Origin: Halalkaliarchaeum sp. AArc-CO
GTDB taxonomy: Archaea; Halobacteriota; Halobacteria; Halobacteriales; Haloferacaceae
Direction: 5' to 3'
Assembly (NCBI RefSeq): GCF_024972735.1
Contig: NZ_CP087722.1
Span: 1-64,000 of the forward strand
DNA: 64,000 nucleotides
The notes under the pieces: generated by a model
What the model was told of the DNA's origin: nothing
Database searches by the model: none
What the model saw: only the letters and a program-made list of their open reading frames with translations
Made by a program: the position numbers and the translations under genes
Shown here: piece after piece, positions 36,170-62,153 of the stretch
Position numbering within the stretch: position 1 is the first letter of the stretch
Layout: each line of letters opens with the position of its first letter

Positions 36170-37107
36170 GCTCGACGGCGACCCTCTGGACGCCATCGCC
36201 CTCGTCAAAGAATTTCGTGAAAGTCATGACAAAGACCGCATCAGTACCTCCGACTACTCTCAGCAACGGGTTTTCGACATCCTCTACGAGAAACTCGACG
36301 CGCTCGGTGGCATCTACGTGATCGTCTTGGACAAAATCGACAACATCGGCCACTCCGACGACATCTTCTACGGGCTCCCACGAGCACGGTCGAACGGCTA
36401 TGTCGACGACGTTCGTCCGGTGATCGTTGGCATCAGCAACGACTTCCAGTTCCGGGATAACTCTCGCCGAAGGTCAAAGACACGCTCGCCGATAAGAAGA
36501 TTCTCTTCCCCACATCCGACCCGAATCAACCACGTTCGATTCTCAATCCACGTGCTATGAAAGCGTTCCACTACGATGTCTTAGCGGATGACGTCGTCCC
36601 GCTCTGTGCGGTGTTTGCCGCCCAGGACACGGGATCGGCCCGACAGGCGATCCGACCGCTCCGTGAGGCCGGCGAGCTCGCGCAAGCCGCCGGTTCTGAC
36701 ACCGTGACCGAGGAGCACGTCCGGTACGCCCAGGACGAACTCGAAAAGAACCACCTCTACGAGGGGATGCAGAAACTCACAACACAGTGACACACCGTCC
36801 TCTCTGCGCTAGCGTACCACCAGGCGCTGGACGACGTCCCGGTTCGCTCTCTCGATCTCTACGAACGATACGTGAAAATCTGCGACCAGCTTGACGCCGA
36901 CAGCGTGAGCAAACGCCGTGTTCGCGACCACCTCTCGGATATGAGTATGCTCGGCTCATCAGCATCTATGAACGGAACGAAGGGCTCTTGGCTGGTCGGT
37001 ATCACGAGTACGAGCTCGACGTTCCGCTGAAAGCCGTACTTGAGGCGCTCCTGTCGACGACTCTCTTCGAAGAACTCGAAAAGCATCATCAAGTCGACGG
37101 CCGGTGA
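36170..37107 (+). pseudogene. Decayed Orc1/Cdc6 initiator gene
   Basis: Pieces of one haloarchaeal Orc1/Cdc6 protein appear in order but in different frames: RVFDILYEKLDALGG and VIVLDKIDNIGH (Walker B), VIVGISNDFQFRDN (sensor 1), then after a shift near 36465 DVVPLCAVFAAQDTGSARQA, an in-frame TGA at 36788, then VRSLDLYERYVKICDQL, and after another shift near 36950 YHEYELDVPLKAVLEALL (winged helix). The N-terminus with Walker A is gone, truncated where the xseA fragment begins. Confidence 0.88.
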
Positions 37108-37266
37108 TAACAACCAACTCCAGTTGGACATCCCCGACTATTGAGTCCGTTTACGATCTCCAGAGGAAAACCGAGCCGAATCCTGTCGCTGAAATATTCG
37201 GAAACAGTGGAGGTGTGGATACCAGCGTGTATTGAGGACTCGGAAATGGTGTGCTGCCTTGTGATG

Positions 37267-39727: not shown

Positions 39728-39964
39728 ATGCCGAATTCCACTGACCCTGCTGCCGTGGCTCACGATATTGAAACCGGTGACAAGGTACGATTCCATTTTG
39801 ACGGCAGCATCAGTACACACCAGTTTCAACCAAGCTCCCCGTTTGAAACTGAAGTCTCGCTCTCGCTGTCTCTCCCTGATAGCGAAACAGAGAACCCGAC
39901 GACTCGAATTGATGTTGCCTTGTTGAACGCAAGACAGCGACGGGGTAGGGTCGATTGTTTGTAG
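39728..39964 (+). pseudogene. Small gene, probably truncated by the second IS5 element
   Basis: The 78-codon frame (MPNSTDPAAVAHDIETGD...) reads as a genuine small beta-rich protein but ends at the left edge of the IS. A coding-like stretch on the far side (about 41030-41215, ADTYFFEVITPATEDSFV to a stop) may be its 3' part. I could not find a matching target duplication, so the joining is tentative. Confidence 0.4.
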
Positions 39965-41008
39965 TCTCAAGCTGTCAGAGGCGCGTTCTTACGATCAGAA
40001 GATGCAGTAGCTGTTACTGACGGCGGTTGTCGAAGGGTCAAAACTATGGTATCTTGTTTCGTTGTGTCACTGACGACGGCGATGCCTCTCCCGGATACGT
40101 CCGGAGAAAGGGAGCAGGCGGCGAGGCCTAACTCGCCGCCTGCGTCAGGTTATGTACGATGCACTTCCGTGTCAGCTCCCGGAACTGGCCGTGCCAGCTC
40201 CGGGAGCGGAGCTTCTCGCCGTCGTCTTCCTTCAATTGCGAGAAGCCCGTTTCACTCATCCACCGCTGGTTGTAATCCTCGTTCATCCGGGAGTTATGAG
40301 CCTTCTGTAGCGGTGTCTGCTCTCTGTGCTTGATCAACGGTCGCGTTGATTCGGAGCGACACTCCTCACGGAGGTCGCTCCACGAGTAATTCGCGTCAGC
40401 AGACAACACCCGCAGGTCTTCCGCGTTCCGGCGGAAGACCTGCATCCCGATATGGCCGTCCCACGCCTTCTGTGTCGTGAAATGAACGTCTTTGATCGCT
40501 AGTGAGTTCACGTCGATCAAAATCGTCGTCTTCATCGACTGGAACGAGTAGTTCGCGCGGTCGCGGTAGTGGTAGCTGGTCTGATCGCGTTGGAAGCCAC
40601 TGGCGTCAATTGCGGCTTCACCGCTCCACCCCGCCTGCTCCGCACTTCGGCGGAGCAAGCGGCGGAGTTCACGCATTCGGTACTCGTTTTCCCACCGACA
40701 AAATGAACTGTAGTGCGGTGCCTCGTCGAGATCAAACACGGCGAGAATGCCGGGCATCTCGTTGAGGTAGTCTTCAGTCTCACGGAGACTCTTTTCGAGC
40801 TCAACGCGGTACAGAATCAACGCGATCTGTACCCACTCGGCGTACCCGTCCGCGCCTTCCGGCGCGGCGGGTACGTCGGAGTCGTCAACGTGCTGTTTGG
40901 CAAGCTTTCGACACATCCACGCCAGCCGTCTGAGCGATGCCATATCGCCAGACGGCGTCCATTTCCGGGTTAATCTGACGGAAGATCACAGTAAGAGCGT
41001 TTGAGACT
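39963..41008 (-). mobile_element. Second IS5-like element, boundaries approximate
   Basis: It contains an intact transposase. Imperfect inverted ends share AGTCTCAA at 39963 and TTGAGACT at 41001-41008, but no clean target duplication is visible, so the ends are provisional. Confidence 0.6.
40128..40943 (-). CDS. IS5-family transposase
   Basis: A 271-aa DDE transposase, related in layout to the one at 34174 but clearly a different group. The catalytic residues lie in AAIDASGFQRD (Asp), VLSADANYSWSDLREE (Asp) and QRWMSETGFSQLKEDDG (Glu). Confidence 0.92.
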   Translation of the reverse strand: MASLRRLAWMCRKLAKQHVDDSDVPAAPEGADGYAEWVQIALILYRVELEKSLRETEDYLNEMPGILAVFDLDEAPHYSSFCRWENEYRMRELRRLLRRSAEQAGWSGEAAIDASGFQRDQTSYHYRDRANYSFQSMKTTILIDVNSLAIKDVHFTTQKAWDGHIGMQVFRRNAEDLRVLSADANYSWSDLREECRSESTRPLIKHREQTPLQKAHNSRMNEDYNQRWMSETGFSQLKEDDGEKLRSRSWHGQFRELTRKCIVHNLTQAAS

Positions 41009-41256
41009 GTCGTCACTAGGCGGCAAAACAAGGCAATTGATGTTCAACCACCAGCTGGCGACCAGAAAGCTGACACCTACTTCTTCGAGGTTATCACACC
41101 CGCTACCGAGGATTCATTCGTCACTCCGCTCCGAGTGGAAAAGAAGGATGACGGGCACAAATCTGAGTGGGGAATCAACGGCATCGAGCGGCTTGAGAAT
41201 CTCTCGCAGCCATAATCCTGTTGCTCAATCCTCTGGCTGACAAGGGTCTCTCGATA

Positions 41257-41302
41257 TCTTACCAAATCTTGGGAACTAAATAGCTCAAATTGTTTGGTAA
41301 GA
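41257..41302. promoter_or_regulatory. Spaced palindrome, copy 1 (upstream of the nuclease gene)
   Basis: Perfect inverted arms TCTTACCAAA and TTTGGTAAGA separated by 26 bp. An identical pair with the same 26-bp spacing is at 43121-43166. The spacer contains an AT-rich TATA-like stretch, so this may be an operator straddling the promoter of the nuclease gene. Confidence 0.75.
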
Positions 41303-41347
41303 ACAGGAAGCGTTGGTTTATCGGACTACCATCTCAATCAGTCGATA

Positions 41348-43087
41348 ATGGGCGTGAATGAGGATCCTCCCTTTGCGAATTCTCCTGAACATCTCGACCC
41401 CTCTGAAGTCCATCGTCGAGATGAGAAACTCCAACGTGGAAATCACTCCCTCGCCCACTCCGACCACGATGAAATTCTCTCTTCTCTGCTTCAGACGATT
41501 CGTACGAATGGGACTCGCCGAACACTAACCCAGTTCTATGTCCACAATCTCCTTCGGATGAGTCTATTGCGGCACGGAGATCAAAGTCGCGCAACATCGA
41601 ACCCGACTGGCCTAGAGCTCTCACCGGAGCAAGATCCTGGTCTCCCACCACGACTCGTTCAGTTCGGCGTCGGAATTACCCTCGAGACGGATACTGAAAC
41701 GACCGATCCACAGTCGTTCGAGCAGATTGCGACATATCTCCTCGAACTCAAGAACTGGTACGTTCGGCAGGGTAGCTCACACCTCCCACTCGACTCACCG
41801 ATGGCGGATCCGTACTTCGGGATGGTGTGGCGTGAACTCACGACCCTGCGTCACGCAGATGGCTTTCAGATGCTCGAAAAAGCGTACCGGGCATACAAAC
41901 CCTGGGAGCAGGAGATGGAGGAACTTCTCGGCTTTTCTATCGAGGATGCCGTCTACTATACCCGTGAACTCACGGATTGGATTACACCAAGATTAGAGGA
42001 ACAGGATACGGAAGTCGCGAGGTGGTCATCTTCATTGCTAGATTTCTCTGAAAAAGCGATTGATCTCACGGACGAGGCGGTGTGGGTGTCCGACGAGACT
42101 CTTTTGGACTGGTGCGACGACAGCCCACGTTTCCAGAACTTCCTCGAACGACTAACCGTCGAACCGGGCACCGTGTCCGGATTTCGAACGCCGGTAGATG
42201 TGAATCCACTAGAGCGAGCGCCGTTCGTCCGAGCTGGTGATGAATACCTGCTTCCGCTTCCCCGTACCGTTCTCTATGCTCTCGCCAACACCTTCTTCTA
42301 CGATTTGATCGATTCGGAGTACCAGGGCGGATTTCAACTACGGTTCGGTGATTGGCTCGAGGAGTGGACTGAGGACTGTCTCTCGAAGGTCTTCTCGAAA
42401 GACGATATCATCCAGAACTACACCTATGAGTACGACGGTGAGGAAGTAGAGGGTGATATACTGATCCTCCACGACGATGAACCCATCATAATCGAATGTA
42501 AGGGGAAGAAGCTCCGCGCTGAGACTCGGAAAGGAAACTTCGGGGGCATCGACGCGATCAAGGAAGACATCGAACGAGGGATCGGAGACGCGTACCACCA
42601 GGCTGATCGGCTGGTGACGGGCGTTCAATCCGGCCAGATTACTGAGATCGAAACGTCGGATGGGACGACGATCTGCTTGGAACCCTCCACTCTTGAGGAT
42701 GCACATCGGTGGCTTGTACTTGGAGAATCGTATGGGTCAATCGCGACTCGAGACTTCGCGAAAATACTCGATATTACGCCTGTTCCGTACGTCTGCGATA
42801 TCTATGACCTGCAGGTACTTGTCGAGGTCCTTGAGTCCCCGGAGCGACTTCTCCACTACGTCCGGCAACGAACTCGGCAAACGACGGTTCAACTCCGGCG
42901 TCCTGGTACTCAATATGCGAACTCGAAAACCTTCAGTTCTGATGAGATTGACTACTTAGCCGTCTACAAGCGCAATGGCTGGGAGTTCCCGCCGGGTGCT
43001 CGACGCATCACAGGGGCTGGAAACAACCTTCGAGAAGACGCTATCGATTCGATAATGGACAGCGGGGAGTTTCAATTCACATTCTAA
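41348..43087 (+). CDS. PD-(D/E)XK-type protein, putative DNA-cleaving defence protein
   Basis: A protein of about 579 aa. I start at ATG 41348; the frame is open from a TTG at 41294, but that lies inside the palindrome. The N-terminal two thirds are helical and unrecognised. Near residues 365-390 VEGDILILHDDEPIIIECKG gives the D-x(n)-ExK core of restriction-type nucleases, followed by a helix with basic residues and Gln (GDAYHQADRL). The gene sits alone, preceded by one palindrome and followed by its exact copy. A nuclease guarding against foreign DNA is plausible; the partner is unknown. Confidence 0.65.
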   Translation: MGVNEDPPFANSPEHLDPSEVHRRDEKLQRGNHSLAHSDHDEILSSLLQTIRTNGTRRTLTQFYVHNLLRMSLLRHGDQSRATSNPTGLELSPEQDPGLPPRLVQFGVGITLETDTETTDPQSFEQIATYLLELKNWYVRQGSSHLPLDSPMADPYFGMVWRELTTLRHADGFQMLEKAYRAYKPWEQEMEELLGFSIEDAVYYTRELTDWITPRLEEQDTEVARWSSSLLDFSEKAIDLTDEAVWVSDETLLDWCDDSPRFQNFLERLTVEPGTVSGFRTPVDVNPLERAPFVRAGDEYLLPLPRTVLYALANTFFYDLIDSEYQGGFQLRFGDWLEEWTEDCLSKVFSKDDIIQNYTYEYDGEEVEGDILILHDDEPIIIECKGKKLRAETRKGNFGGIDAIKEDIERGIGDAYHQADRLVTGVQSGQITEIETSDGTTICLEPSTLEDAHRWLVLGESYGSIATRDFAKILDITPVPYVCDIYDLQVLVEVLESPERLLHYVRQRTRQTTVQLRRPGTQYANSKTFSSDEIDYLAVYKRNGWEFPPGARRITGAGNNLREDAIDSIMDSGEFQFTF

Positions 43088-43120
43088 TTGCTTGGCCTCA
43101 ACGATCTGGTGTTGGGTATG

Positions 43121-43166
43121 TCTTACCAAACTACTGTTCAGTACTCGCCGCTAATGTTTGGTAAGA
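43121..43166. promoter_or_regulatory. Spaced palindrome, copy 2
   Basis: Same arms (TCTTACCAAA / TTTGGTAAGA) and the same 26-bp spacer length as copy 1; the spacer sequence differs. It lies just after the nuclease gene and 172 bp before the next operon. Confidence 0.75.
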
Positions 43167-43284
43167 AACGGGTGGATTTCCAGGAGAAGCCTCGGAAATG
43201 GTAGAGGTAGCAAAGCATCTGGAACACCGGAATGGTAGTATCAAAGGATCTCTTACGTACTCATACAGACCCATACAGACCCAC

Positions 43285-43337: not shown

Positions 43338-44483
43338 GTGAATATCGTAATAGACGTGCCCGATTCACTCGTCGGGCGGATGAAACGCGCTGTCGCTGCG
43401 GGCAACTACGATGACCCGCAGGAGTTCGTTCGGACGGCGATCGAGAATCAAATCCAGCTCGAAGAGGAGGAGACTTCCCAGGAGGTCAAATCGCTTGAAG
43501 AAGCTCTCAATTCTGTAGAGCCAGAGTCCGAAATAGAAGCATCGCCTGGGGAGAGCCAGCCCGACGATTCGGCTCACAAACAGGCGCAAGAGCGCCAGTC
43601 TGACGATGCTGCGCCGGCTGATCGGACGAACGAAACAACGCTGTCGCTGGCTCGACGCCAGTACGACGACATTCCGACGGTTGCACCGCCCGACGAGTCG
43701 CGGTTGGACAAAGGTCCTCTCTGGGGACAGTACAATCGTATTTTCCCCGTCAAGCTGGTCGTTCGGGGATTAGCGAATGCTTTTCTGGACTCGTCCGAGG
43801 AGGGGCTCCCCGACGGTCCGTGGCTTGATCTCCAGCCGTTTCAGCGACGCGCCGCGAGGACGGCTCGGAAGATCGGGACTGAAATCGCAACTCACGATGA
43901 GCGAGCAGGGCGCAAACGAGGTGAGAAGCTTGCTGCCGCGTTGCCCACGGGCGATGATCCCGACAAATCGATGGATCGATTCGAAACGCATTTCATCGGA
44001 CGCGTCGAGCACGACGATGAATTAACTGGGGCACTACCGCACCTGTCCTTCGTCGACATCGTTCGAGAAAGCCCCCAGCAGATCGGGCTCACGGACGCTG
44101 GCCAGGAATTTGCAAGCCTCTCGAACCCACTTCTCGACGACGGCGTCGACGCCGACACGTCCCTCTCACAGGAGGAGCGACAGTTCTACATCTCGCATGT
44201 ACGGGACGTGCGAGAAGAAGAATACACGGCGATGCAAAAGGTCGCTCAAGCAATCGAAGAGGGAGATAACCGGCCAACGTCGCTGACCGAGCGGGTAGCT
44301 TATCTGAATCCGGAGTGGTCGAACTCGCAGGCTGAGACGATTCGCTCCGGCCTCACGAGTCGAATGTACGAGCTGGGGCTGGTCGACCGGAGCCAGGTCG
44401 GTCAGCGGGGTATTGCTTATGAACTAACAGCTGCTGGCGAGACGTTCCGATCCAACGACACAGAATCCACACAACCTCATTAG
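43338..44483 (+). CDS. RHH-type DNA-binding protein with C-terminal winged-helix-like region
   Basis: A 381-aa protein starting with GTG. Residues 1-40 (MNIVIDVPDSLVGRMKRAVA...EFVRTAIENQI) have the strand-helix-helix pattern of ribbon-helix-helix proteins. A charged linker (about 45-110) leads to a helical core, and the C-terminus (SRMYELGLVDRSQVGQRGIA) looks like a winged helix. It is the first gene of a co-directional set with two module-repeat proteins and an SF2 helicase (gaps of 10, -4 and 32 bp). It may recruit the others to DNA and repress its own promoter. Confidence 0.6.
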   Translation: MNIVIDVPDSLVGRMKRAVAAGNYDDPQEFVRTAIENQIQLEEEETSQEVKSLEEALNSVEPESEIEASPGESQPDDSAHKQAQERQSDDAAPADRTNETTLSLARRQYDDIPTVAPPDESRLDKGPLWGQYNRIFPVKLVVRGLANAFLDSSEEGLPDGPWLDLQPFQRRAARTARKIGTEIATHDERAGRKRGEKLAAALPTGDDPDKSMDRFETHFIGRVEHDDELTGALPHLSFVDIVRESPQQIGLTDAGQEFASLSNPLLDDGVDADTSLSQEERQFYISHVRDVREEEYTAMQKVAQAIEEGDNRPTSLTERVAYLNPEWSNSQAETIRSGLTSRMYELGLVDRSQVGQRGIAYELTAAGETFRSNDTESTQPH

Positions 44484-46300: not shown

Positions 46301-49201
46301 ATGGGACGGCGTTTTCCAACACCGATCTTCGGGATTGAACGCGGACCGGAATGGGTGCCGACACTGGTAGAGATCGCTATCGAGAACGACGACGAACTCA
46401 CTCGAGATCAGTTCGAGGAGCGCTGTCGTGAGCGCTTGCGGAAACCCGACGGCAGTCGGTATTCGCCGAGTTACATCGAACGAACGCTTTCGACGTTCAT
46501 CCAGATGGGTGTCCTCAGAGAACACGACGATAAGATCACCGTCTGGGAGTTCGCGCGCCGGTTCCACGACGGCGATATCGAGTATGCGGAGTTCCTCTGG
46601 CGTGGTATCAAACAGAGCTGGGTTCTCCAAGGCAATTATCCAGAAGGAATTGAAGGGCTCCAGGATGCGCATTACGTCGTTCGACACGCTGATCGGCCGT
46701 TACAAGCGGGAGAGATTCGTGAACGGCTGACCGACGAGTTTGGATACGAGTACAACGATGCTGGGATACGCGGTTATCCGGAACTGTTGACCCAGCTCGG
46801 TGCGCTCCAAGAAACCGATGACGGCTACGTTCCTGGCCCTAGATCGAGCACCTACGAGGGTCGGTGGCGGGATGTCGACATCTTCCACAACCTCGAACGG
46901 TGGATCCATCATCGGGGCCCGACGTTCGATGTCCCAGCTGCTGACATCAAACAGGCGCTCGTAAAGTACTACATGTACCGGGAATCCGGGGGGTGGGGAC
47001 GGCACCGCAGCCTGTACAACCGCTTCCTCGACGACTATGTTCGTGAGACGTCGCGTGAGAGCGACGTGGCTCATCCCCAGATTCATCTGTCCGAAGAATA
47101 CCAGGAGGATGAACGCATTCGAGACACCCTCAGCGAACAAATCAAAGCGAAATTCGATGATATCGACGGCCGCGATCTCGCTGGACTCTATGCCGAGACA
47201 CTCGAGGACATCCTCGCTGCCGAGACCGAGGCGGAAGCCAAGGACCTCCTCTCAGCGGCGAGCCCCGGCATCTCCCGCCGGGACGTCAGAAATGCGTTTG
47301 ACGAGGAGAGAGAACCGTACACGTTCCCTGCTGGATTTTCGCTTTACGACTGGCAGTCTGAAGCGATTGACACGTGGTTCGACAATGAGGCCAGCCCATC
47401 TGAACGCGGTATCGCGCAGGTGGTGACTGGGGCCGGTAAAACGGTGATGGCGCTTGGTGCCATCGACGAGTGGCTGGACAAGCATCCCGACGGCGTCGTC
47501 ACGGTTGTTGTGCCGACGAAGGTGTTAATGCACCAGTGGCTCCGCGAGTTCCTCGAGAAATTGAACGTCCCTCCGTCGGAAATCGGCTGGGCGGGAGGAG
47601 GCCACAAAGACGATCATAGTGACCGTCGCATCATCGTGAGCATCGTCAACTCCGCGGTCAAGGACGGTTTCCTGGCCCGGTCGCTCGACGCTGCCGATAC
47701 TGATGAGCACCTCTTGGTCGCCGATGAGTGCCACCGGTATACGGGAGACGTCCACTCGAAAGTCCTCGAATATCCCAACACAGCGACGATGGGGCTGTCT
47801 GCGACACCACTGTCGACGATCGATCCGGAGAACGACGAACTCACCGACGACGACGAGTTCCTCCTCGAGAACTTGGGCTCGCTTTTCTACAGGCTGAGTT
47901 ACGACGAGGGGGTTGACCGCGGCCTCATCTCCGAGTTCACCATCAACTACGTCGGCTTCGAGCTAACGCCGGCCGAACGTCACACCTACGAACAGTTCTC
48001 GAAGAAGGTGTCATCCGCTGTTCGGGATATCGAAGCGCGCCATGGCCACCGACTCTCCGAATTGCGGGGAAACTATTCACAGAACCTGCAGACGATTCGC
48101 GAGTCGACGGACTCGCCGACGCCGGCGATTGCCGACTTCTTCGAGTACACGAAACGACGGCGCGAGCTGATCGCCGAGGCGGTTTCCCGACAAGCGATCA
48201 CGCACCGTCTCCTCGAGGACGCAATTGAAGAGGACAAGAAGACGATCGTGTTCCAGGAACGAATCAAACACTTAGAGCAGATGGTCGCCCCGTATGATCA
48301 GCGGGATGAGAAGACCCAAACGGGCAAGTATGGCTCGAAGGAGAGCGAACGGGCGAGTCTCTACCAGCAGTACGAGGACGAACTCGACGATATCAATCGC
48401 GACCTCGAAAACCTGTTTTTCCGTCGCGATTACGCACCCGTGATGTACCACTCCGGGCACCGCAATTCGGAGTGGAACGAGTGGGGTATCGAATGGTTCC
48501 GGGACGAAGGGTTTGCGAACGTGATGCTGAGTGTCCAGGCTCTCAAGGAAGGGGTTGACGTCCCCTCGGCAGACGTTGGGATCATTCGTGTCTCGTCTGG
48601 AAACGTCCGTGATCGCATCCAGACACTCGGGCGCATCCTGCGAACCGGCCACGATCCGGACAAGCCCTCGACGCTGTACGTGCTCTATGCCCAGGATACA
48701 GTTGACGAACGAATCTTCGAGGAAGTCGACTGGGAAGCCGAAATCGGCGGCACCCATCACTACTACAAGTGGGAGACCAGCGACGAAATCATCAAAGGCG
48801 AACTGGAGGGCCCTTCGAAGGAGCACGAACCGGACGTCTCTGCGTATCAACAACCGGAGATTCCCGATCCGGCCGACCTCGAACGTGGGGATCCATATGA
48901 GGGGCCTCGTCGTGGGCGGACTGTGAGCGTCGACACTCAGGGGCGCCCGTTTCGAGACACAGCCGATGGCCGTCAGTATATCACGACCCCGGAAGTCGAA
49001 GAAGTGGCTGAGTACGTCCACCGCCTTCGCGGCGGCGGTCGCATCATCATTAATGATGCCGACCACATGATCACCGTCTCCGATGAGGGGCCGGTCTTTC
49101 TGGGAATTCTCGAAGCCGACTCACTTGACTACGAAGAACAGACGGAGGACGAGGAGGAGGTCCCCGAAACCTTCGAGGAATTCATGAATGAGGGGGATTG
49201 A
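46301..49201 (+). CDS. SF2 helicase (XPB/restriction-helicase type) with C-terminal copy of the module
   Basis: A 966-aa protein. The N-terminal 340 residues are winged-helix-like (SPSYIERTLSTFIQMGVLRE; GIRGYPELLTQLGALQETDD). The helicase core follows: YDWQSEAI, VVTGAGKT (about 373-380), VVVPTKVLMHQW, VADECHRY (DECH, about 471), GLSATPL, then in lobe 2 VMLSVQALKEGVDVPSADVG and RIQTLGRILRTG. The last 90 residues contain a single copy of the module of the two upstream proteins (GRPFRD, GGRIIINDADHMITV, GPVFLGIL). A shared module between a motor and its neighbours suggests one complex. Confidence 0.8.
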   Translation: MGRRFPTPIFGIERGPEWVPTLVEIAIENDDELTRDQFEERCRERLRKPDGSRYSPSYIERTLSTFIQMGVLREHDDKITVWEFARRFHDGDIEYAEFLWRGIKQSWVLQGNYPEGIEGLQDAHYVVRHADRPLQAGEIRERLTDEFGYEYNDAGIRGYPELLTQLGALQETDDGYVPGPRSSTYEGRWRDVDIFHNLERWIHHRGPTFDVPAADIKQALVKYYMYRESGGWGRHRSLYNRFLDDYVRETSRESDVAHPQIHLSEEYQEDERIRDTLSEQIKAKFDDIDGRDLAGLYAETLEDILAAETEAEAKDLLSAASPGISRRDVRNAFDEEREPYTFPAGFSLYDWQSEAIDTWFDNEASPSERGIAQVVTGAGKTVMALGAIDEWLDKHPDGVVTVVVPTKVLMHQWLREFLEKLNVPPSEIGWAGGGHKDDHSDRRIIVSIVNSAVKDGFLARSLDAADTDEHLLVADECHRYTGDVHSKVLEYPNTATMGLSATPLSTIDPENDELTDDDEFLLENLGSLFYRLSYDEGVDRGLISEFTINYVGFELTPAERHTYEQFSKKVSSAVRDIEARHGHRLSELRGNYSQNLQTIRESTDSPTPAIADFFEYTKRRRELIAEAVSRQAITHRLLEDAIEEDKKTIVFQERIKHLEQMVAPYDQRDEKTQTGKYGSKESERASLYQQYEDELDDINRDLENLFFRRDYAPVMYHSGHRNSEWNEWGIEWFRDEGFANVMLSVQALKEGVDVPSADVGIIRVSSGNVRDRIQTLGRILRTGHDPDKPSTLYVLYAQDTVDERIFEEVDWEAEIGGTHHYYKWETSDEIIKGELEGPSKEHEPDVSAYQQPEIPDPADLERGDPYEGPRRGRTVSVDTQGRPFRDTADGRQYITTPEVEEVAEYVHRLRGGGRIIINDADHMITVSDEGPVFLGILEADSLDYEEQTEDEEEVPETFEEFMNEGD

Positions 49202-51095: not shown

Positions 51096-51241
51096 GTCGA
51101 CCAGAGTAGCGAAGGCATTTATAATCTCCAGACAGTGCTGGATAGTTCAGAACTGGGCTGAACGTTGGAGTACATAGCGTATCTGTCCGAGAGTTTCTCC
51201 AAATCAACATCTTGATGCGGAGGGGTGTGCTTGATTGTGTA

Positions 51242-54154
51242 ATGCCAGTTGTGGTTTGTCCGGACTGTGAGTCATCCTTTGCGTTGTGGTCAATGTTTGC
51301 TGATCATTTTTGGTCGGAACATATTGAAAATACAGAATTTTCGGGAGAGGGGTGCCCTTCATGTGATTACCCGCTTACTGAGGACAATGTACTTTATCAC
51401 CTCGCGTGTTTGACTGAAGTTGACCCCGGGACAGTCTGGACAGGAATATCAACCGATAATTCGTTGTGTCCGGTCTGCGGTGAGTCGCTCACCCTAGACC
51501 ACATATCCAACCACGTCCGGTCACACGCTGGTACTGTTCAGAAAGAGGTGCTTGGCGGTGATCTTTCTTGTAGAGTGTGTGGTGAGATCCCTAACGATGA
51601 GAACCGGTTTACTGGTCATCTTGACTGTTTAATCCAGCACCTTGCTCTTTCGAATGATGGCGACAACAGGTATACGTGTCCCTACTGCGAAGAGCAAATG
51701 TCTCACGAAGGGGCCTTGGAATGGCATATTTGGCTAGATCATTTTGAGGCAAACGGGTTCCAGTCCAACTGTCCAGGTTGTGACCAGACTCTCTCATTCG
51801 GTGCTCTCAAGCAACACATACTCTGTCAAGATGATGTTCATGGGCCGGATGCGGCACGACTCTATGATCTACGGATTGATGACTGCTTTCTGTGCGATGT
51901 CTCGGTCCTGAACCCGCAGGTCCTCCAGCGGCACATCTCAGGGGATCATCTATCCCAGATACAAGACATTCATGGCAAATGTCACATTTGCGGTGAGACA
52001 ATTGACGATGGCCAAGTTACCCTCCATTATCCATGCCTTGCCGCATCTGCCGACTCCGATATCAATTTTCGACAGCAACCGACGTGGCGCTGCCCTATTT
52101 GTAACGAGGTCACGGGTGCTCGGGATGATTTTATCACTCATCTTGAAACGGATCACGAACTGGATCTGTTCGTGGCCGACAACTGCCGTGTCTGTGGTGA
52201 CTCCCTAACAGAAATCGCGGATCATTACTCATGTCTTGACGCGCTGGTCGGGAAGGAAGTCGGTACGGATACTTTGGATGCTGATATTCAGGTACCGCCT
52301 GTACTTTCCCACCACCCCGATAAAGTCACGTATACGGCTACGGCACCGGTACCGGAAGACGAGCGAACCTTATTCTATCATGGTTTGAAGGGTTTCGTTG
52401 AGCGGGAACGACAGTCGGCCCGAGATGAAGCGTGGCGTCGCTACGAAGAAATACCATTAGCCCAGCTAAAGTACAGAGAAGACTTGATACTAGACCTGAT
52501 GCCGCTTGGACGCCAGTCCCACCCACACTATGATCTGCAGTTTGTGTTTGAGCGGCCCGTCCCTGAATATGAACATGAGCCCGATGATTTGGCAACACGG
52601 TTCGGGATCTATCCACGGCAAAAAGTGATCGTCGGTGCTGATGCCGACATACTAGGTCTACCTATGGAGGCTGAAGTGACATTCGTCGATGACCAGACTA
52701 TCGGTATCTCGCCTGACCCCGACCAGTCGTACCGTGAATCAGAACTCCAAACAGCACTGACCAACGATAGCACTGCCTACCATCTCGTTGACTTACTTAC
52801 GCCTACACCCTACGACCGGAAGCAAGAGGCCATCACAAAGGTACAGTCAACTACCACAGCGGATAGCTTAGTGATGGGCGATACAGCCTTGGTTGAGCAT
52901 CCACGTGACGTCGGATCGTTCTATGCCGGGGCGTTAAATCAACAGCAGCGAGAAGCGGTTGGTCGAGCGCTGGGTGAACCAACGCTGTGTTGTATCCATG
53001 GCCCGCCCGGGACCGGGAAGACGCGGACCTTGACAGCAGCTATTGAACTGGCAGTTGCCCGTGGTGACCGGGTTCTGGCCTGCGCTCATTCAAATCAGGC
53101 CATTGACAATCTGCTCAGTGGATCCAGTACGGTGGACGAGCCAGAGGATTCCAGTCTCCATGCCTTCGTGATGGACGAACGCGAGATAACGATGGCTCGT
53201 GTCGGACATCATTCCGAGGATCCGGTCGTCCAACAGTATTACCAGAGTGTCGATCCTACTCGTGCGGACGTCGTCGGTGCGACGACGAGCGCTGCGGCGG
53301 AACTCGATGTCGATGAATTCGATCTTGTGATCATTGATGAGGCGACCCAAGCCGACCAACCAGCAACGTTCATTCCGCTACTGCGGGGTGAGAACCTTGT
53401 GTTGGCAGGCGATCACAAGCAGTTGCCACCCTTCTGTTCAGATGAAACCGCTCGTGAAGAGGATATGCATATCTCGCTGTTCGAACATTTCCAACGCGTC
53501 TACGGTGAGCAGGTATCGACTCGGCTGATCCGGCAGTACCGGATGCACAAGGATATCGCGGCATTCCCCAGCGCCCAGTTCTATGATGGTCAACTGGAGC
53601 ATGGGAATGACAATCAAAGGTGGCAGATCACCGATCTCAAACCGATGGTGGGGCACCATGTCCAGAGTACTGAACAAATACGTGATGAGACCAAATCACG
53701 GTACAATCCCGATGAAGCTGAACTGGTCGCCCAACAGGCGCGACTCTTACAGATGCACGATGTCGACTCCTCCGATATCGGGATTATCACGGCATATTCC
53801 GCCCAAATTGGTGAAACCACTGACGCGTTACGAAACGAGGATGTCGAGGACCCGGAGAAGATTGAGATCGATACGATCGACAGCTTCCAAGGTGCTGAAC
53901 GTGAGGCGATCATCGTTTCATTCGTTCGAAGTAATGAAGCCCACGCCAGCGGGTTCTTGGCCTTCCCTGATGAGGGTAAACGTCGTCTCAATGTCGCCTT
54001 GACTCGGGCAAAAAAGCGGCTCGTAGTGATTGGTGACTTTGGGACACTCGGAGCGACAAGTGAACACAGGACAGAAGGTGAATCATGTGCCCATATCTAT
54101 CGGGCACTATATGACCACTTACGTGAGCGGGATTGCTTGAAAAACCACAACTAA
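51242..54154 (+). CDS. Zinc-finger array fused to an SF1B (Upf1/Dna2-like) helicase
   Basis: About 970 aa. I prefer ATG 51242 because the first CPDC finger starts at once; the frame is open to 51212. The first 340 residues carry about ten Cys/His fingers in series (CPDC, CPSCD, CPVCG, CRVCG, CPYCE, CPGCD, CFLCD, CHICG, CPICN, CRVCG, each followed by one or two His). The motor follows: IHGPPGTGKTRTL (about 585), LVIIDEATQAD, LAGDHKQLPPF, RLIRQYRMHKDI, ITAYSAQIGE, DTIDSFQGAE and LNVALTRAKKRLVV. Upf1/Dna2/Mov10-type helicases translocate on RNA or DNA; substrate and partners are unknown here. No ZnF-array version is known to me in standard repair pathways. Confidence 0.88.
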   Translation: MPVVVCPDCESSFALWSMFADHFWSEHIENTEFSGEGCPSCDYPLTEDNVLYHLACLTEVDPGTVWTGISTDNSLCPVCGESLTLDHISNHVRSHAGTVQKEVLGGDLSCRVCGEIPNDENRFTGHLDCLIQHLALSNDGDNRYTCPYCEEQMSHEGALEWHIWLDHFEANGFQSNCPGCDQTLSFGALKQHILCQDDVHGPDAARLYDLRIDDCFLCDVSVLNPQVLQRHISGDHLSQIQDIHGKCHICGETIDDGQVTLHYPCLAASADSDINFRQQPTWRCPICNEVTGARDDFITHLETDHELDLFVADNCRVCGDSLTEIADHYSCLDALVGKEVGTDTLDADIQVPPVLSHHPDKVTYTATAPVPEDERTLFYHGLKGFVERERQSARDEAWRRYEEIPLAQLKYREDLILDLMPLGRQSHPHYDLQFVFERPVPEYEHEPDDLATRFGIYPRQKVIVGADADILGLPMEAEVTFVDDQTIGISPDPDQSYRESELQTALTNDSTAYHLVDLLTPTPYDRKQEAITKVQSTTTADSLVMGDTALVEHPRDVGSFYAGALNQQQREAVGRALGEPTLCCIHGPPGTGKTRTLTAAIELAVARGDRVLACAHSNQAIDNLLSGSSTVDEPEDSSLHAFVMDEREITMARVGHHSEDPVVQQYYQSVDPTRADVVGATTSAAAELDVDEFDLVIIDEATQADQPATFIPLLRGENLVLAGDHKQLPPFCSDETAREEDMHISLFEHFQRVYGEQVSTRLIRQYRMHKDIAAFPSAQFYDGQLEHGNDNQRWQITDLKPMVGHHVQSTEQIRDETKSRYNPDEAELVAQQARLLQMHDVDSSDIGIITAYSAQIGETTDALRNEDVEDPEKIEIDTIDSFQGAEREAIIVSFVRSNEAHASGFLAFPDEGKRRLNVALTRAKKRLVVIGDFGTLGATSEHRTEGESCAHIYRALYDHLRERDCLKNHN

Positions 54155-55233: not shown

Positions 55234-55377
55234 ATTACTGGCGGATTCCTTATAGAACGCGTCAAGAATTTGAACACAAAAACGCTGGCTGTCGTTTGAG
55301 GTGGATCTCCCGATATGCGACGCTGACCGGCTCTTCATTGGCACTCTTACCAAGCAGTTGGATGCGAGAGCGAAGAC

Positions 55378-55391
55378 CTATTTATTAATAG
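55378..55391 (+). promoter_or_regulatory. TATA-like element for the 55408 gene
   Basis: TATTTATTAATAGG lies about 25-30 nt upstream of the ATG, consistent with a leaderless transcript. Confidence 0.5.
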
Positions 55392-56040: not shown

Positions 56041-59000
56041 CTACCGGTACTGGTTGATGAGTTCGCGGATGTCATCGGAGTCCACGTAGAGGCCTTGGAG
56101 ACGGGTGGTTCTGTCTGCTTCTTTCAGTAGCATGTCGCCGTCACCTCCGAGTTCTTCAGCTCCCCCTTCGTCGATCAGGATCCGGGAATCGGATTGTTTC
56201 GGGAGTCGGAAAGCCACTCGGGTATCTAGGTTGGCACGGAGGTCCGTGTCGATCGCCTCGTGGGAAGGTCGCTGGGTGGAGATGACGAGATGGACGCCCT
56301 GTGCCCGTGCGATCTGGGCGATACGCCGGACGTTGTCCTCGGTATCATCAGCGTCCTCCCCGAGCTGCTGGAGAAGGTCGCTGTATTCGTCGATGATGAC
56401 AACGATAGGCTTCATCTGGTCGTCCGGATTCTGCTCGTTGTATTCTCCGATGTCCCGGCAGACGCTTTCCCGCAGCAGTTGTTTCCTACGCGGGATTTCG
56501 TCCTCGACCAGCCACTCAAACAGATTGGCAGCGTCTTCGGCGTCGGTAATCACTTCGCCGTTGGAAAGGTTCGGCAGGGAATCGAAGAAGATGAAGTCAG
56601 TCTCCTTCGGGTCGACCAGGGCGAACTCAACGTTGTCCTCGCCTTTCTGCTCTATGAAGTTCAAAATCAGGGAGTACAGGAACACAGTTTTCCCGCTGCC
56701 TGTTGCTCCACCGACCAGCATATGCGGTGCTTCAGAGAGATCCGAGCGGTGGACAATGCCGTCTGGTGTGACTCCTGCCAAGAAGGGTAGTGAGGCCGTC
56801 TCGATGTCGTCGGACGGCTTGTACCGGTCCCTGTAGTCGCGTAGAGGGACCACGACGTTGTTCTCCCGGGGAACGTCCAGGGCAATGTATTCAGTTCCAG
56901 GCAGTCGCTGGACGATCGGTTCTTTCTCGAACGCCATTTCCCGGGCTATATCCTGTGTCCGTTGCTCCAAGGAGCTCTGTTTCTCGCCTGGTGCCAGCCG
57001 GATTTTGAAGCGAACGACGTTTGGCCCGACCTCGATATCGTCGGGGTCGATGTTCCGGATCTTGATCTTGAAATCGTTGAGAACCCGTTTCAGAGTTTCT
57101 ACCAGGTCGGTGTATTCTTCGGGGTCACCGAATCGGTCAGCAGATTCCGTGTCGACATCTGTCTCCTCGTCGTCACTGACGGTGTCTTCCTCTTCTCCGC
57201 CGGCTTTCTCTTCGTCATCTTCTGTCTCAGCTTCGTCGAAGTCGTCCGTTTCCTCTGCTTCCACAGCTTCTTTTTCGGTATCCTGTTCTGGCTCCTGGTC
57301 TTCCCGGTCCTCGATGCCACTGACGATCAGCCGCTTAATCGACTGGCGAGGAAGCTTGTCAACCCTGATGGACTGGGCGTTCGGAGTTACGCCGTCGATT
57401 CGTTCGTCCGACGTGGCTTCGCTGGTGACTTCCACCGAGACGATCCTCGGGTTGATCTCGATTTGAGCATCCCCGTTGAATACGTCGTTAATCCTGTCTG
57501 CCCACTCCTGCTTGCCCTCCATGCCTTCTGCGGAGGTCAGCTCGTAGTACAGTTGTTCGCGGAGAGCCTCTTTCCGGGGCGACGTAGTGAGGTTTTTGTC
57601 GCCGGTGAACAGGCCGCGGATCGTGTCTGTCGTCTCGAAGACTTGGTCGACGGCACTTCCTTCGACGACCTTGGTACCGCCTTCGTCTTTGACGGTGTAG
57701 GCGCTGCTGGTTTCTTCCAGAGTCTTGATTTCAATGATGTCGAGGATGAGGCCGCCGTCGTCGTCGAACTGGACGGTGAGGATGTCAGCCCGGCTCTCGC
57801 TGTCTCCCAGGTTCAGCCATTCCCGGGTACGTGGGTTGTCGATAGAGAAGATCAGCTTGGGGTCGGCCAGTGTCTGCTGAAGCCACTGGACTGCGATGAT
57901 CGAGCCAAGCAGGCCTTTCGTATTCCGGGATTTTCCGCTGCCGAGGGTTTCCCGGGTTATCAGGCGGAGAAGACCGCTTTGCTGCAGGTCGGCTATTCTC
58001 TCCGCGATCTCCTCCAGGTCGGTGTCGTCAGGAGCTAGGCGGTATTCGTTGATGATACGGCGGAGGACTCGTCGGAAGTAGTCTATGTCCTCCGAGTACG
58101 TGGCGAAGTCGCGTTCGCCGCGTCGTTCCCTGGAGATCAGGTTGTCCTTCCAGAACGGGTTGCCGTTCATCGGCGGTGAGGAGATGGAGACCCAAATCGC
58201 GGAGTCGAGGAGCTCGTCGATAGTCTCCTTTTCGACGTTGAGTTCGTTGACCTCGGCGTTGTGGACAGCCTGCCGCTGGTTATACAGCTGGTTGATCAAG
58301 TCCTGATACTCGGAGAAGAGGACCCCCTCCTTCGACGGCGAGATGTTGATCTTGTCCTCGAGCAGGTCGTAGTCGAACTCTTTCGGGACGTACAGTGGGT
58401 GGATTGTGGTCTCGGCGTCTCGTTCGAAGGTTTGGATGCTGAAGTCGCTCTGGTCGTTGATCAGAATGAAGTGCTGTGGGTCACCCTTCAGATCCTCAGC
58501 GTATGAGTCGTAACTGGGGTGTTCGGTTGTAACAATCTCGAACTTGCCAGAGTCGTTGTCAGGGCCGAACAGGTTGATGATGTCCTCAGAGACGCTGGAT
58601 GAGGCAGTACCGTTGAGGACAGGTTTCTCTTCGTCCTCGATGAAGGCGAACTCCACTGTTGCGCCTTGGATTTCCTCATTCTCCGCCAGGTCAGCGATAT
58701 CAGAGAGCAGGTCTACCGGATCCAAGGGATCGATGACGCTGATCTTGAGGTGACGTCGGGACGGTGGGTATGCTGACGTGAATTTGTCGAGGACGTAGTC
58801 GTAGAACTTGGAGTTCGTGCCTTCCGCTGCGTTCTCAATCCGGGTGTAGACTGGCAGCCTGTCGATTTCAGCTGACTGTACAAGGTAGGTCTCATCCGCC
58901 AGTCTGTAGTTCCCGCCGACATGGATACTGCGGAGGACGTGCGGCTGTTCTTCGACGCTGTTGATTAGGAAGTTGCGTTCCTCCTCGGTCAGCGATTCCT

Positions 59001-60648
59001 TCTCGTCCTTCATTTCCCGCGCCAGTTCGGAGTATTTCCAGAGGTGGAGCGGGTGCAGCGGGGAGAGGATGAGTTCTCTGTCGTCTTCGTATTCGAGGAT
59101 GATGGTATCAAATAGGAGGAAGTCGGAGAGGAGTTTGGAGGATCCTTCGGAGCTGACGTTCTGAATCTCTCGGTACTTCTTGTCCAGTTTGTCCTGGACT
59201 TCGCGGTATGCCTCGATGTACTCTTCTGCCGATTCCAACAGATCTTCGTCCCCAAGAAGCCGGATGAGCGGTGCGGAGAGTAGTCCGGGGAGGGCGTCGA
59301 CAAGTTCGCCGCGGGCTGTTACGTATCGGTCGATGGATTCAACCAGGTCCTCGAACTTGCCGCTGTTCTCGGCTACTCTACGGAGTTTTTCGAAGCTGCT
59401 GTCGTCGCCTCGCGGCTGAAAATTCTCGCTTCTCAGGGCTTGGAAGTTCTTGATCGCGCTCTGTCTGTCCTCTGGATTGTGTATGATGCCGCCGAAGAAG
59501 TCCTCGGTGACGAAATGTTCGACGAAGTAATAGAGGTCGTCGTTGACGTCGAAGGCCAGCTGTTCGTCCCCGGTGAACTCCATATCGACCCGGCTTTCTT
59601 CTTCCTCTACGGCTTCTCGGTACTGGTCGTCGAACTCTTCTGAAAGCCGTTCCAGTTCTTCGTCGTTGTCGTCGAAGACTGCTTCCACACTGGCGGATTC
59701 GACATCTCTACGGGTGCTGGTGGTTGAACGTCGCCGACTGGACTGGCCGGAGGTGAAGAAGATCTCCTTAACCTCGTTGTACGTCAGGTCGGCGAGAATC
59801 TCCGAGTCACCTGTTCGTTCGAACCGTCGAAGCTTGGCTACGAATTTTTCCCGTTCTTCCCTTTCGCTGTCGTCGACTTTGGTGACGCTATTAGTGAGGC
59901 GTCGTCGATCCCTGTTAGACATGTGAGAGACTCGCAGAACGAGGTCCAGGTTGTCGGAAAGCCTGTCCGGGATTTCGGCTGGGTTGTTGAGCCCTGGGTC
60001 GTTGAACAGCCGCAGTCTGTAGAGTTCAGTTCCGAGAGCATCAAGTGAGGCTTGTTCTGATTCCTTGAGCGTCGAGGTTGCGTAGTCTGCTACTGCAGGG
60101 ATTTCGAATCTATCGTAGAGGTCGGATCCAAGGGTTTCCCAGATGGCTTTTGCTGGGGGACTGTCGGCGAACTGTTCCTGGGCCTGCATCTGGTCCGTGA
60201 TTTCTCGAGTAATTTCTGCCAGAGGCAGGTCGACCATGCCCTCAAAGTCTTTCATCGAGTTCAGGCGGGCGTGGTCTCCCCGGACCAGGATTACCAGTTT
60301 CTCTGGCTCGATACGTCCCTCCCATTCGAATCCGGTGTCGGTGCCGTTTCGCCAGTTGACTGCGACACTGACTTTGTCTGTGAGTCTGACGGAGGAGTCC
60401 TCAGTCCGTGACTGGAGATCGTCGATGTCTGCTTCGTCGATGCTAACCAGACCCAGGCCGACATCGTATCGTGCGTTACTGCAGAGGATGTCGACGAACT
60501 CCTCGGCGTCGAACCGAGGCGGAGATTCGATGATGACCCCGATGTTTTCCTCAGTCAGTTGTTCGACTGTCTCGTTCGCGATTGCTTTGCCAATCAGATC
60601 CTCGTTGCTCTTGTATGAGTTGGCTTGTGTCTGTGGACTTTCGCTCAT
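56041..60648 (-). CDS. DptH/FtsK-HerA-like translocase with nuclease-like core, 1535 aa
   Basis: The C-terminal 400 residues are an FtsK/HerA motor: LVGGATGSGKTVFLYSLI (Walker A, about 1311), VEFALVDPKETDF, KPIVVIIDEYSDLLQQ (Walker B, about 1410) and HLVISTQRPS. Residues about 950-975 read RADILTVQFDD, then LDIIEIKT, a PD-(D/E)XK-like D...ExK core. A long acidic linker (about 1115-1175) joins the two. The rest is unrecognised. Size, order and motor match DptH/DndH, the translocase of phosphorothioate-dependent restriction, or its archaeal Pbe counterpart. It overlaps the upstream gene (ATGA). Confidence 0.7.
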   Translation of the reverse strand: MSESPQTQANSYKSNEDLIGKAIANETVEQLTEENIGVIIESPPRFDAEEFVDILCSNARYDVGLGLVSIDEADIDDLQSRTEDSSVRLTDKVSVAVNWRNGTDTGFEWEGRIEPEKLVILVRGDHARLNSMKDFEGMVDLPLAEITREITDQMQAQEQFADSPPAKAIWETLGSDLYDRFEIPAVADYATSTLKESEQASLDALGTELYRLRLFNDPGLNNPAEIPDRLSDNLDLVLRVSHMSNRDRRRLTNSVTKVDDSEREEREKFVAKLRRFERTGDSEILADLTYNEVKEIFFTSGQSSRRRSTTSTRRDVESASVEAVFDDNDEELERLSEEFDDQYREAVEEEESRVDMEFTGDEQLAFDVNDDLYYFVEHFVTEDFFGGIIHNPEDRQSAIKNFQALRSENFQPRGDDSSFEKLRRVAENSGKFEDLVESIDRYVTARGELVDALPGLLSAPLIRLLGDEDLLESAEEYIEAYREVQDKLDKKYREIQNVSSEGSSKLLSDFLLFDTIILEYEDDRELILSPLHPLHLWKYSELAREMKDEKESLTEEERNFLINSVEEQPHVLRSIHVGGNYRLADETYLVQSAEIDRLPVYTRIENAAEGTNSKFYDYVLDKFTSAYPPSRRHLKISVIDPLDPVDLLSDIADLAENEEIQGATVEFAFIEDEEKPVLNGTASSSVSEDIINLFGPDNDSGKFEIVTTEHPSYDSYAEDLKGDPQHFILINDQSDFSIQTFERDAETTIHPLYVPKEFDYDLLEDKINISPSKEGVLFSEYQDLINQLYNQRQAVHNAEVNELNVEKETIDELLDSAIWVSISSPPMNGNPFWKDNLISRERRGERDFATYSEDIDYFRRVLRRIINEYRLAPDDTDLEEIAERIADLQQSGLLRLITRETLGSGKSRNTKGLLGSIIAVQWLQQTLADPKLIFSIDNPRTREWLNLGDSESRADILTVQFDDDGGLILDIIEIKTLEETSSAYTVKDEGGTKVVEGSAVDQVFETTDTIRGLFTGDKNLTTSPRKEALREQLYYELTSAEGMEGKQEWADRINDVFNGDAQIEINPRIVSVEVTSEATSDERIDGVTPNAQSIRVDKLPRQSIKRLIVSGIEDREDQEPEQDTEKEAVEAEETDDFDEAETEDDEEKAGGEEEDTVSDDEETDVDTESADRFGDPEEYTDLVETLKRVLNDFKIKIRNIDPDDIEVGPNVVRFKIRLAPGEKQSSLEQRTQDIAREMAFEKEPIVQRLPGTEYIALDVPRENNVVVPLRDYRDRYKPSDDIETASLPFLAGVTPDGIVHRSDLSEAPHMLVGGATGSGKTVFLYSLILNFIEQKGEDNVEFALVDPKETDFIFFDSLPNLSNGEVITDAEDAANLFEWLVEDEIPRRKQLLRESVCRDIGEYNEQNPDDQMKPIVVIIDEYSDLLQQLGEDADDTEDNVRRIAQIARAQGVHLVISTQRPSHEAIDTDLRANLDTRVAFRLPKQSDSRILIDEGGAEELGGDGDMLLKEADRTTRLQGLYVDSDDIRELINQYR

Positions 60649-62147
60649 ATTTTCTCCTCCGGAACAGAGACGATGGTGACGCCGTCCGCGTATTCCTCGG
60701 CGTATCCAAGGCTGGATACGGCTTCTTTGAAGCCCTCGTAGTTCTGGTTGTTCAGCGGGTCACTTTCTGATGCGCTGGCACCGAGGCGGATGTCCCACTC
60801 GGCCAGGTGGCTGCGGTCCTGTTCAGTTCCGCCTACGATGATTCCGTACCGCTCTCGGAGTTCTTCTGAGAGGTCTTGGAGGGACATGCTCGCACCGGGT
60901 TCGATTACGGAGATAAGGATGGGTTCCAGCATCTCAGGGTCAGGTCGGTACCTGCGCTTGTTCGCCCGGTTTCCTCGTGGTTTGAGTATCCCGGCACGCC
61001 AGGCGAATGTCTGGGCCGTGGACTGCGGTGTGTACGTGTCGAACCGGTTCGAAAAGTCATGGATAACGTTGCTGACAGCGTCCACCAGCCTGTGGAAGGT
61101 GGTATCTTTTTCCGGATCCCGAGAGGCACGGAACACCTGTTCGAACTTCTCGTAGTCCTGTGCGATCTTGTCCTCCTTCTTCCGGTTCAACTCCAGGAAA
61201 TTGTGGTTCTCGATCTCTCGGAGGACATCGTCCTCGCTGTAGTCTTTGTAGCCCTGTAGGTCGAGGACGTGTTCGACGCCGAGCCGGGTGGCTAACTGGA
61301 TCTCTGATCCGACGACGCGGAAGGATTCGAGGCTGGCGTCGGCTACCGGGTTGTTCCTGTTCCCGGTGTAGTTCAGGACGAGTGGGACGGGTTCGTCTTT
61401 GCCTCCGTCTTCCCGTATCTCGTTGTGCCGGTTGGCCATGTAGACATAGAGTAGGAATCCGCCGAATTTGATAGTGCGGCGAAGGTCACGGGCGTAATTC
61501 AGATCGTAGTCGCCGTTGGAGTCTTTCAGGTGCTTCGACAGAGTTTCGAAGCCTACGACGAACTCGTCCGTGATCTTTCCGTCACCGAATGCGTCTCCGA
61601 GAACCGGCTCTTCCCAAGGTGATACCGTGACGTTGCCTTTCTCTCCACCTTTGGCGAGTGGCCGGAATAGGAGGGAGATGGCGTCGTGGTGGTCCTGAAG
61701 CTGGTCGGTTAGCTTCTGGTTGATGTCGTTGTCTGATTCGGCCAGTACGGTGTAGATGAACTGTGAAGGTGTTACACCTATTCGACGGTAGGCGACGAAC
61801 CAGTCGCTCATAGAGGTCATCGCGGAGTGCCGTGGACTACTTGCGTACAGGGCGTTGTCGTTGTCTAGGACCTTCCGCATCCTGTACCGGAGGTTGTCCA
61901 TCTGTTCGTCGCTGAGATCACGAGAGGACTCGAACAGGTCGTGGTATTTTTCGTCCAAGTCGCTGGAAGGGGTTTTCCCTGGTTTCTCGACGAACTTGAA
62001 TAGGTCCTCCGACTGGTGTGTGGAGCCGAGGACGTTGCTAAAGACGACCTGGGAGAGATGAACTGGTTTCAGAGAGGCAGAGGTTGCTTTGAATCCGAAT
62101 GCGGCTTCGGATGCGTCAGAGTTGATGTCGTTGAGTCTCATTGGCAT
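60645..62147 (-). CDS. Middle component of the DptF/DptH-like operon, function unknown
   Basis: A 500-aa protein with no motif I can name with confidence. It contains a conserved-looking mid-region (LVLNYTGNRNNPVADASLES, AFGFKATSASLKPVHLSQ) and a possible C-terminal winged helix (MSLQDLSEELRERYGIIVGG). Its position between the DptF-like ATPase and the DptH-like translocase is that of DptG, but length and sequence give only weak support. It overlaps the translocase start (ATGA) and is 6 bp behind the ATPase gene. Confidence 0.5.
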   Translation of the reverse strand: MPMRLNDINSDASEAAFGFKATSASLKPVHLSQVVFSNVLGSTHQSEDLFKFVEKPGKTPSSDLDEKYHDLFESSRDLSDEQMDNLRYRMRKVLDNDNALYASSPRHSAMTSMSDWFVAYRRIGVTPSQFIYTVLAESDNDINQKLTDQLQDHHDAISLLFRPLAKGGEKGNVTVSPWEEPVLGDAFGDGKITDEFVVGFETLSKHLKDSNGDYDLNYARDLRRTIKFGGFLLYVYMANRHNEIREDGGKDEPVPLVLNYTGNRNNPVADASLESFRVVGSEIQLATRLGVEHVLDLQGYKDYSEDDVLREIENHNFLELNRKKEDKIAQDYEKFEQVFRASRDPEKDTTFHRLVDAVSNVIHDFSNRFDTYTPQSTAQTFAWRAGILKPRGNRANKRRYRPDPEMLEPILISVIEPGASMSLQDLSEELRERYGIIVGGTEQDRSHLAEWDIRLGASASESDPLNNQNYEGFKEAVSSLGYAEEYADGVTIVSVPEEKI

Positions 62148-62153
62148 CGGTGT

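Follow-up and report, generated by a model that had tools for sequence, protein, structure and literature searches.

The window, i.e. the whole stretch of DNA that was analysed, comprises 64,000 nucleotides of Halalkaliarchaeum sp. AArc-CO (contig NZ_CP087722.1, positions 1 to 64,000). It contains two copies of a spaced palindrome, one before and one after a gene for a nuclease-like protein (Table 1). The contig that carries them is 166,871 bp long, is separate from the main contig and looks like a plasmid. The original prediction had described both copies, and we could confirm their coordinates as well as the perfect 10-bp arms, the 26-bp spacers and the claim that the two spacer sequences differ. 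In the second copy, the match extends to 11 bases per arm. There is no third exact copy elsewhere in the 3.18 Mb genome, and none is expected by chance (100 dinucleotide-preserving shuffles).

Table 1. Features of the locus and of the contig that carries it.
Feature	Position	Strand	Remarks
Decayed orc1/cdc6 gene	36191..37140	+	N-terminal 118 residues missing, frameshift
Two decayed ORBs (37195, 37237)	37195..37256	+	right after the broken orc gene
ISH1-like IS5 element	39914..41037	-	transposase 40128-40943; inserted in a 119-aa gene
Spaced palindrome, copy 1, type I	41257..41302	.	arms TCTTACCAAA-N26-TTTGGTAAGA; 46 bp 5' of the nuclease start
PD-(D/E)XK-type nuclease-like protein, 579 aa	41348..43087	+	weak GapS1/NERD/Card1 similarity
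Spaced palindrome, copy 2, type I	43121..43166	.	34 bp past the nuclease stop; 172 bp before the RHH gene
Decayed ORB GCCTCGGAAATGGTAGAGGT	43189..43208	+	directly 3' of copy 2; 3 mismatches to the ORB consensus
Second decayed ORB AAAGCATCTGGAACACCGGAATGG	43211..43236	+	aligns to the last ORB that follows orc in a Haloplanus plasmid
RHH-type protein	43338..44483	+	opens the next operon; no general palindrome binder
TTAACCAACA sites, six copies	79029, 83480, 87553, 90723, 149097, 155075		arms 21-22 bp apart; on the window's own plasmid
Intact orc	88743-90020		between the TTAACCAACA copies at 87553 and 90723
107-aa gene, TTAACCAACA family	90383-90706	-	preceded by the 90723 copy

The two copies do bracket a PD-(D/E)XK-type gene, as had been predicted, at the distances given in Table 1, and the family signals of its product are weak. 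The C-terminal half of the 579-aa protein has weak PD-(D/E)XK-type matches to NERD, to the Card1 endonuclease and to CARF-PDDEXK. A stretch of it (residues 287-436) resembles the antiphage nuclease GapS1 (NF047931, E = 2.8e-7), but the score of 29.8 bits is far below the curated NCBIfam cut-off of 320, and we do not count the protein as a GapS1 member. No homologs were found among solved structures. Close homologs (93-96% identity) are present in three genomes, G269, G017 and G058; another 12 genomes have remote homologs. The 119-aa gene that was hit by the ISH1-like element is found 5' of copy 1 in G269 and G017. Elsewhere in the window, a DEAD/ResIII helicase (46301-49201) resembles PbeA as well as the restriction protein of dnd, a defence linked to phosphorothioation, and it forms one operon with the genes at 43338, 44494 and 45378, which is common to four genomes at ~96% identity. 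Furthermore, there is a protein of 980 aa (51212-54154) that combines zinc fingers with an SF1 helicase resembling MkoA, and a minus-strand cluster of three genes (56041-63713) in which a large FtsK-like protein matches SspH.

Comparing both copies in three genomes, we found that none of the 40 positions of the 10-bp arms is changed, as against 7 of 52 spacer positions (Fisher p = 0.017); a fourth genome (G058) has lost the first copy and shows a single arm change in the second. We refer to sites with these arms as type I. Of 392 haloarchaeal genomes from the order to which the window's genome belongs, 30 have the type I pattern and none has the reversed control. An alignment of 77 unique copies confines the conservation to the arms. 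The half-site is about 12 bp long, TCTTACCWAACA, its logo ends sharply at both edges with no signal beyond, and the spacing is 24-28 bp, mostly 26. Since the 77 copies share the arms, a nearly fixed spacing and nothing else, the claim that selection acts on arms and spacing is supported. At 55345-55390 of the window, a TATTTATTAATA sequence has a degenerate type I half-site (TCTTACCAAGCA) beside it.

Several copies closely follow stop codons, which would suit an RNA hairpin or a terminator. Yet an A/T (W) variation in the type I arm is found on one arm only, where it breaks the pair and is not compensated by the other arm; compensatory changes in both arms, as expected of an RNA stem-loop, were not seen within type I. 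The arms therefore behave as two half-sites for a protein and not as an RNA stem. Together with the sites that overlap or precede a start codon (see below), this leaves the hairpin with hardly any credibility.

The genes around the sites were taken from open reading frames called in this analysis, and the counts of neighbours are descriptive and no formal sample, as loci were chosen because they carry sites. Among 38 independent sites (type I and a related type II, see below), the flanking genes are in tandem at 17, convergent at 12 and divergent at 9. With about a third of the sites between convergent genes, the palindrome is not simply a promoter operator. It had been suggested that the two copies co-regulate the nuclease and the next operon, with the RHH protein as the obvious binder. 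RHH proteins often bind inverted repeats, copy 1 abuts the promoter region of the nuclease gene, and the arms are conserved in three genomes that have the operon. However, dozens of loci carry the site with no RHH gene, copy 2 lies more than 120 bp upstream of the TATA-like sequence of the RHH gene, and G058 retains the operon with copy 1 gone. Given the share of convergent settings as well, an operator pair private to these two transcription units is very unlikely, and the RHH protein is not supported as its binder.

Type I sites most often have two kinds of neighbour, orc1/cdc6 genes and a DUF6788 gene of about 112 codons. At the latter, the type I site is at, overlapping or just before the start codon. 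We examined 85 DUF6788 loci, consisting of 40 more loci and some of the earlier ones, and found a palindrome with at most two mismatches at 81 of them, nearly always about 10 bp or less from the start codon. The arms are not the same everywhere: different DUF6788 clades have different arms (types ACCW, ATGT, GTGC, GTGT and ATCA). Placed on the DUF6788 tree, the arm types require 5 changes compared with a mean of 32.7 after shuffling, and none of 200 shuffles was as low. One genome (G027) has two arm types, each at its own DUF6788 gene. The type II arms (CTTATGTAAC) are likewise multi-copy in genomes with DUF6788 genes (control 0). Furthermore, DUF6788 is present in 21 of the 30 genomes with type I sites and in 60 of the 362 others (p ~ 1e-9).

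The plasmid of the window has another, resident arm type. When the whole contig was searched blindly for spaced inverted repeats, the six TTAACCAACA sites of Table 1 emerged, one of which precedes a 107-aa gene. The family of this gene has no Pfam entry; its full-length alignment with DUF6788 shows that the two are homologous (hhalign probability 95.9, E = 5e-9). A TTAACCAACA site is found 14-17 bp before the start in all nine members of the family that were examined, and the site is present in all 52 genomes that strongly match the family, compared with 3 of the 10 no-match genomes listed. The TTAACCAACA arms occur in 239 of 392 genomes, with up to 30 copies per genome (control 0), which means that, for this arm type alone, the pair of site and small gene is present in most haloarchaeal genomes sampled. 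The arms were also found in 50 stretches of viral contigs. Genes of the 107-aa family are carried by 221 haloarchaeal plasmid records, and the listed copies are annotated as "hypothetical protein" or not at all. For example, pNRC200 of Halobacterium salinarum NRC-1 has six exact TTAACCAACA sites and three copies of the gene. One of these copies, VNG_RS11815 (L346), has no site at its start within one mismatch per arm, so the rule of a site at the start has exceptions. Since the resident system of the plasmid is of the TTAACCAACA type, the two type I copies of the window are stray sites of a foreign type.

The other frequent neighbours, the orc1/cdc6 genes, relate the sites to replication origins. 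An orc gene is no more than 3 kb away from nine of the 38 independent sites; assuming about ten orc genes per haloarchaeal genome, we would expect this for less than one. Many other sites are far from orc or par genes. Related plasmids have an orc1/cdc6 origin with a type I site at either edge, and the ORBs of this origin (GCTYCGGAAAYGGTGGAGKG, with a G-string) form inverted arrays. In published work, 154 orc genes are reported from 15 haloarchaeal genomes, some with ORBs on both sides (PMC3528665), and in oriC2D of Haloarcula hispanica an ORB-rich region downstream of orc titrates the initiator (PMC3936714); the accessible text of these two papers makes no mention of the palindrome. Given its position at the edges of such origins, the palindrome could be thought of as a variant ORB bound by Orc1/Cdc6 itself. 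This is highly improbable, as separate ORBs with the G-string are found in the same regions, and the true ORBs with GGTGGAGKGAGGG adjoin the site, whose logo lacks the G-string. Unlike an ORB, the palindrome is a spaced inverted pair of 12-bp half-sites that follows the DUF6788 clades, and its arms also go with an Orc group that has few such ORBs in its regions (L054, L055).

Traces of such an origin are found in the window. Two decayed ORBs follow copy 2 and align with the ORBs downstream of orc in plasmids of Haloplanus and Halobacterium; the first of them is among the two best matches to the ORB consensus on the whole plasmid. Copy 2 is 6 kb away from a broken member of the same orc family. 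This gene is 69-72% identical in amino acids to the orc of Halobacterium sp. DL1, its DNA is 84-90% identical to annotated orc genes, and it is directly followed by two more decayed ORBs. Copy 2 and the two ORBs next to it are probably the remains of a type I origin that was invaded by the nuclease and neighbouring defence genes. On the simplest reading, about 5.9 kb of DNA (a DUF4209 gene, the gene interrupted by the insertion element, copy 1 and the nuclease) would split the two halves of one old origin. We can only infer this history, since three relatives keep the junction of nuclease, copy 2 and ORBs with no orc nearby. The window also has a second, divergent orc1/cdc6 gene (9842-10996, 384 aa), which is below the cut-off of the family.

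According to the original prediction, the copies could alternatively be recombination sites of a one-gene cassette. Between G058 and the window, homology starts inside copy 1, and the DNA upstream is unrelated. In a further pair of loci, a segment between two sites, which holds a 507-aa gene in L043, is missing in L083. There are 387 pairs of TTAACCAACA sites in which homology extends over up to 1500 bp on one flank and ends at the site on the other, often right past the near arm. We also counted the unique boundaries of homology blocks that are inside a site or at most 15 bp from it. For 57 TTAACCAACA sites, this is the case for 32 of 310 boundaries, compared with 11.3 for random intergenic positions (maximum 23), and for type I for 19 of 275, compared with 9.3 (maximum 19). 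The intergenic control leaves some bias, because breaks between operons are those that survive. From this excess, we conclude that the sites of both types are favoured junctions, two to three times over random intergenic positions.

These results can be explained if a recombinase swaps cassettes flanked by the palindromes, such as the nuclease, with the small protein as an accessory or a regulator. We consider this reading, which is the main rival, rather unlikely. The cores of tyrosine recombinase sites are 6-8 bp long, and spacers of 20-28 bp do not fit them; a lox/dif-type core (arms of 11-13 bp, spacer of 6-8 bp) was rejected for the same reason. Other homology breaks lie 16-200 bp away from the sites, and the crossover between L083 and L043 could be homologous recombination over shared leader DNA. 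Tyrosine integrases are near four type I loci only, and among the neighbours of the sites there is no recombinase gene that travels with them consistently. We also considered integron cassettes, which resemble the present case in that single genes stand between short palindromic sites with breakpoints at the sites. The attC core is RYYYAAC/GTTRRRY, however, and neither TCTTACCWAACA nor TTAACCAACA contains it; besides, the present sites are few and do not form arrays. In summary, the cassette idea has partial support from the G058 break inside copy 1, the loss in L083 and the enrichment of breakpoints for both types; neither a clean empty site for the nuclease nor a recombinase was found. Cassette recombination may also be a second effect of the same sites.

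The explanation that we prefer, with a probability of about 60%, is that the palindrome is recognised by a plasmid system of haloarchaea that serves replicon upkeep and its own regulation. The system would consist of a small protein of about 110 residues from the DUF6788 superfamily and of several bipartite sites, each made of two inverted half-sites of 10-12 bp that are 20-28 bp apart. We infer that the small protein binds DNA because arm types match protein clades, one site sits where the small gene starts, further copies of the same type lie at a distance, and sites surround origins. The protein bound to the site at its own start codon would shut its own promoter, and the remaining sites, around an orc1/cdc6 origin and between blocks of plasmid genes, would most likely act in origin or partition control. 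They would also mark preferred junctions between gene blocks. As each protein clade has its own arm sequence, coexisting systems would be kept separate, as is the case for ParB/parS and KorB/OB. These known systems have multi-copy, replicon-specific sites, one at their own promoter and others near the origin and elsewhere, with cognate specificity. The palindromes resemble them in being multi-copy and replicon-specific, and in having one site at the promoter of the candidate cognate gene. They differ in being bipartite with a spacer of 20-28 bp and in that binding is deduced here from sequence patterns; moreover, Pfam and PDB searches with the small proteins returned DUF6788 or no family, and no homology to ParB or KorB.

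Several observations speak against this plasmid system. The window's genome and several other genomes with type I sites contain no DUF6788 protein above the cut-off, although the arms in them look conserved. For DUF6788, AlphaFold predicts an N-terminal helix and four strands (pLDDT 84); this model gave no fold match to solved structures in the PDB at E <= 0.001 and resembles no DNA-binding protein among them. Also, the many sites far from orc and par genes do not fit easily. Finally, promoter DNA travels with its gene, and the link between arms and clades could therefore be due to inheritance alone, although the symmetric arms and the distant copies that have the matching type make this less likely.

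A more far-reaching version is put forward tentatively. DUF6788-superfamily proteins and their multi-copy bipartite palindromes may form a replicon-specific system not described so far, in which the palindromes would be centromere- or origin-type sites and at the same time exchange points where plasmids and proviruses swap gene blocks, including defence genes. The literature that we searched contained no paper on DUF6788 and nothing on the arm sequences in haloarchaea; a site family that is widespread on haloarchaeal plasmids has thus apparently not been described there. If the small protein does bind the sites, this would assign a function to DUF6788 and provide a sequence code that could distinguish archaeal megaplasmids, as well as a handle on the maintenance of megaplasmids and on the shuffling of defence genes among them.

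Some loci with type I palindromes deserve a separate mention. In two of them, paired plasmid paralogs of the TATA-binding protein (L040:17195-18466 and L054:14676-15946) have the palindrome in between, and other plasmid TATA-binding proteins end within 1 bp of a site. A Bacteroidia MAG (L067) matched too. In a Lentisphaerae MAG (L070:5310-5731), two tandem type I palindromes are followed by a 105-aa DUF6788-like gene, for which there is no Pfam match, and then by a nucleotidyltransferase gene. This locus suggests that the system of site and small gene has bacterial relatives.
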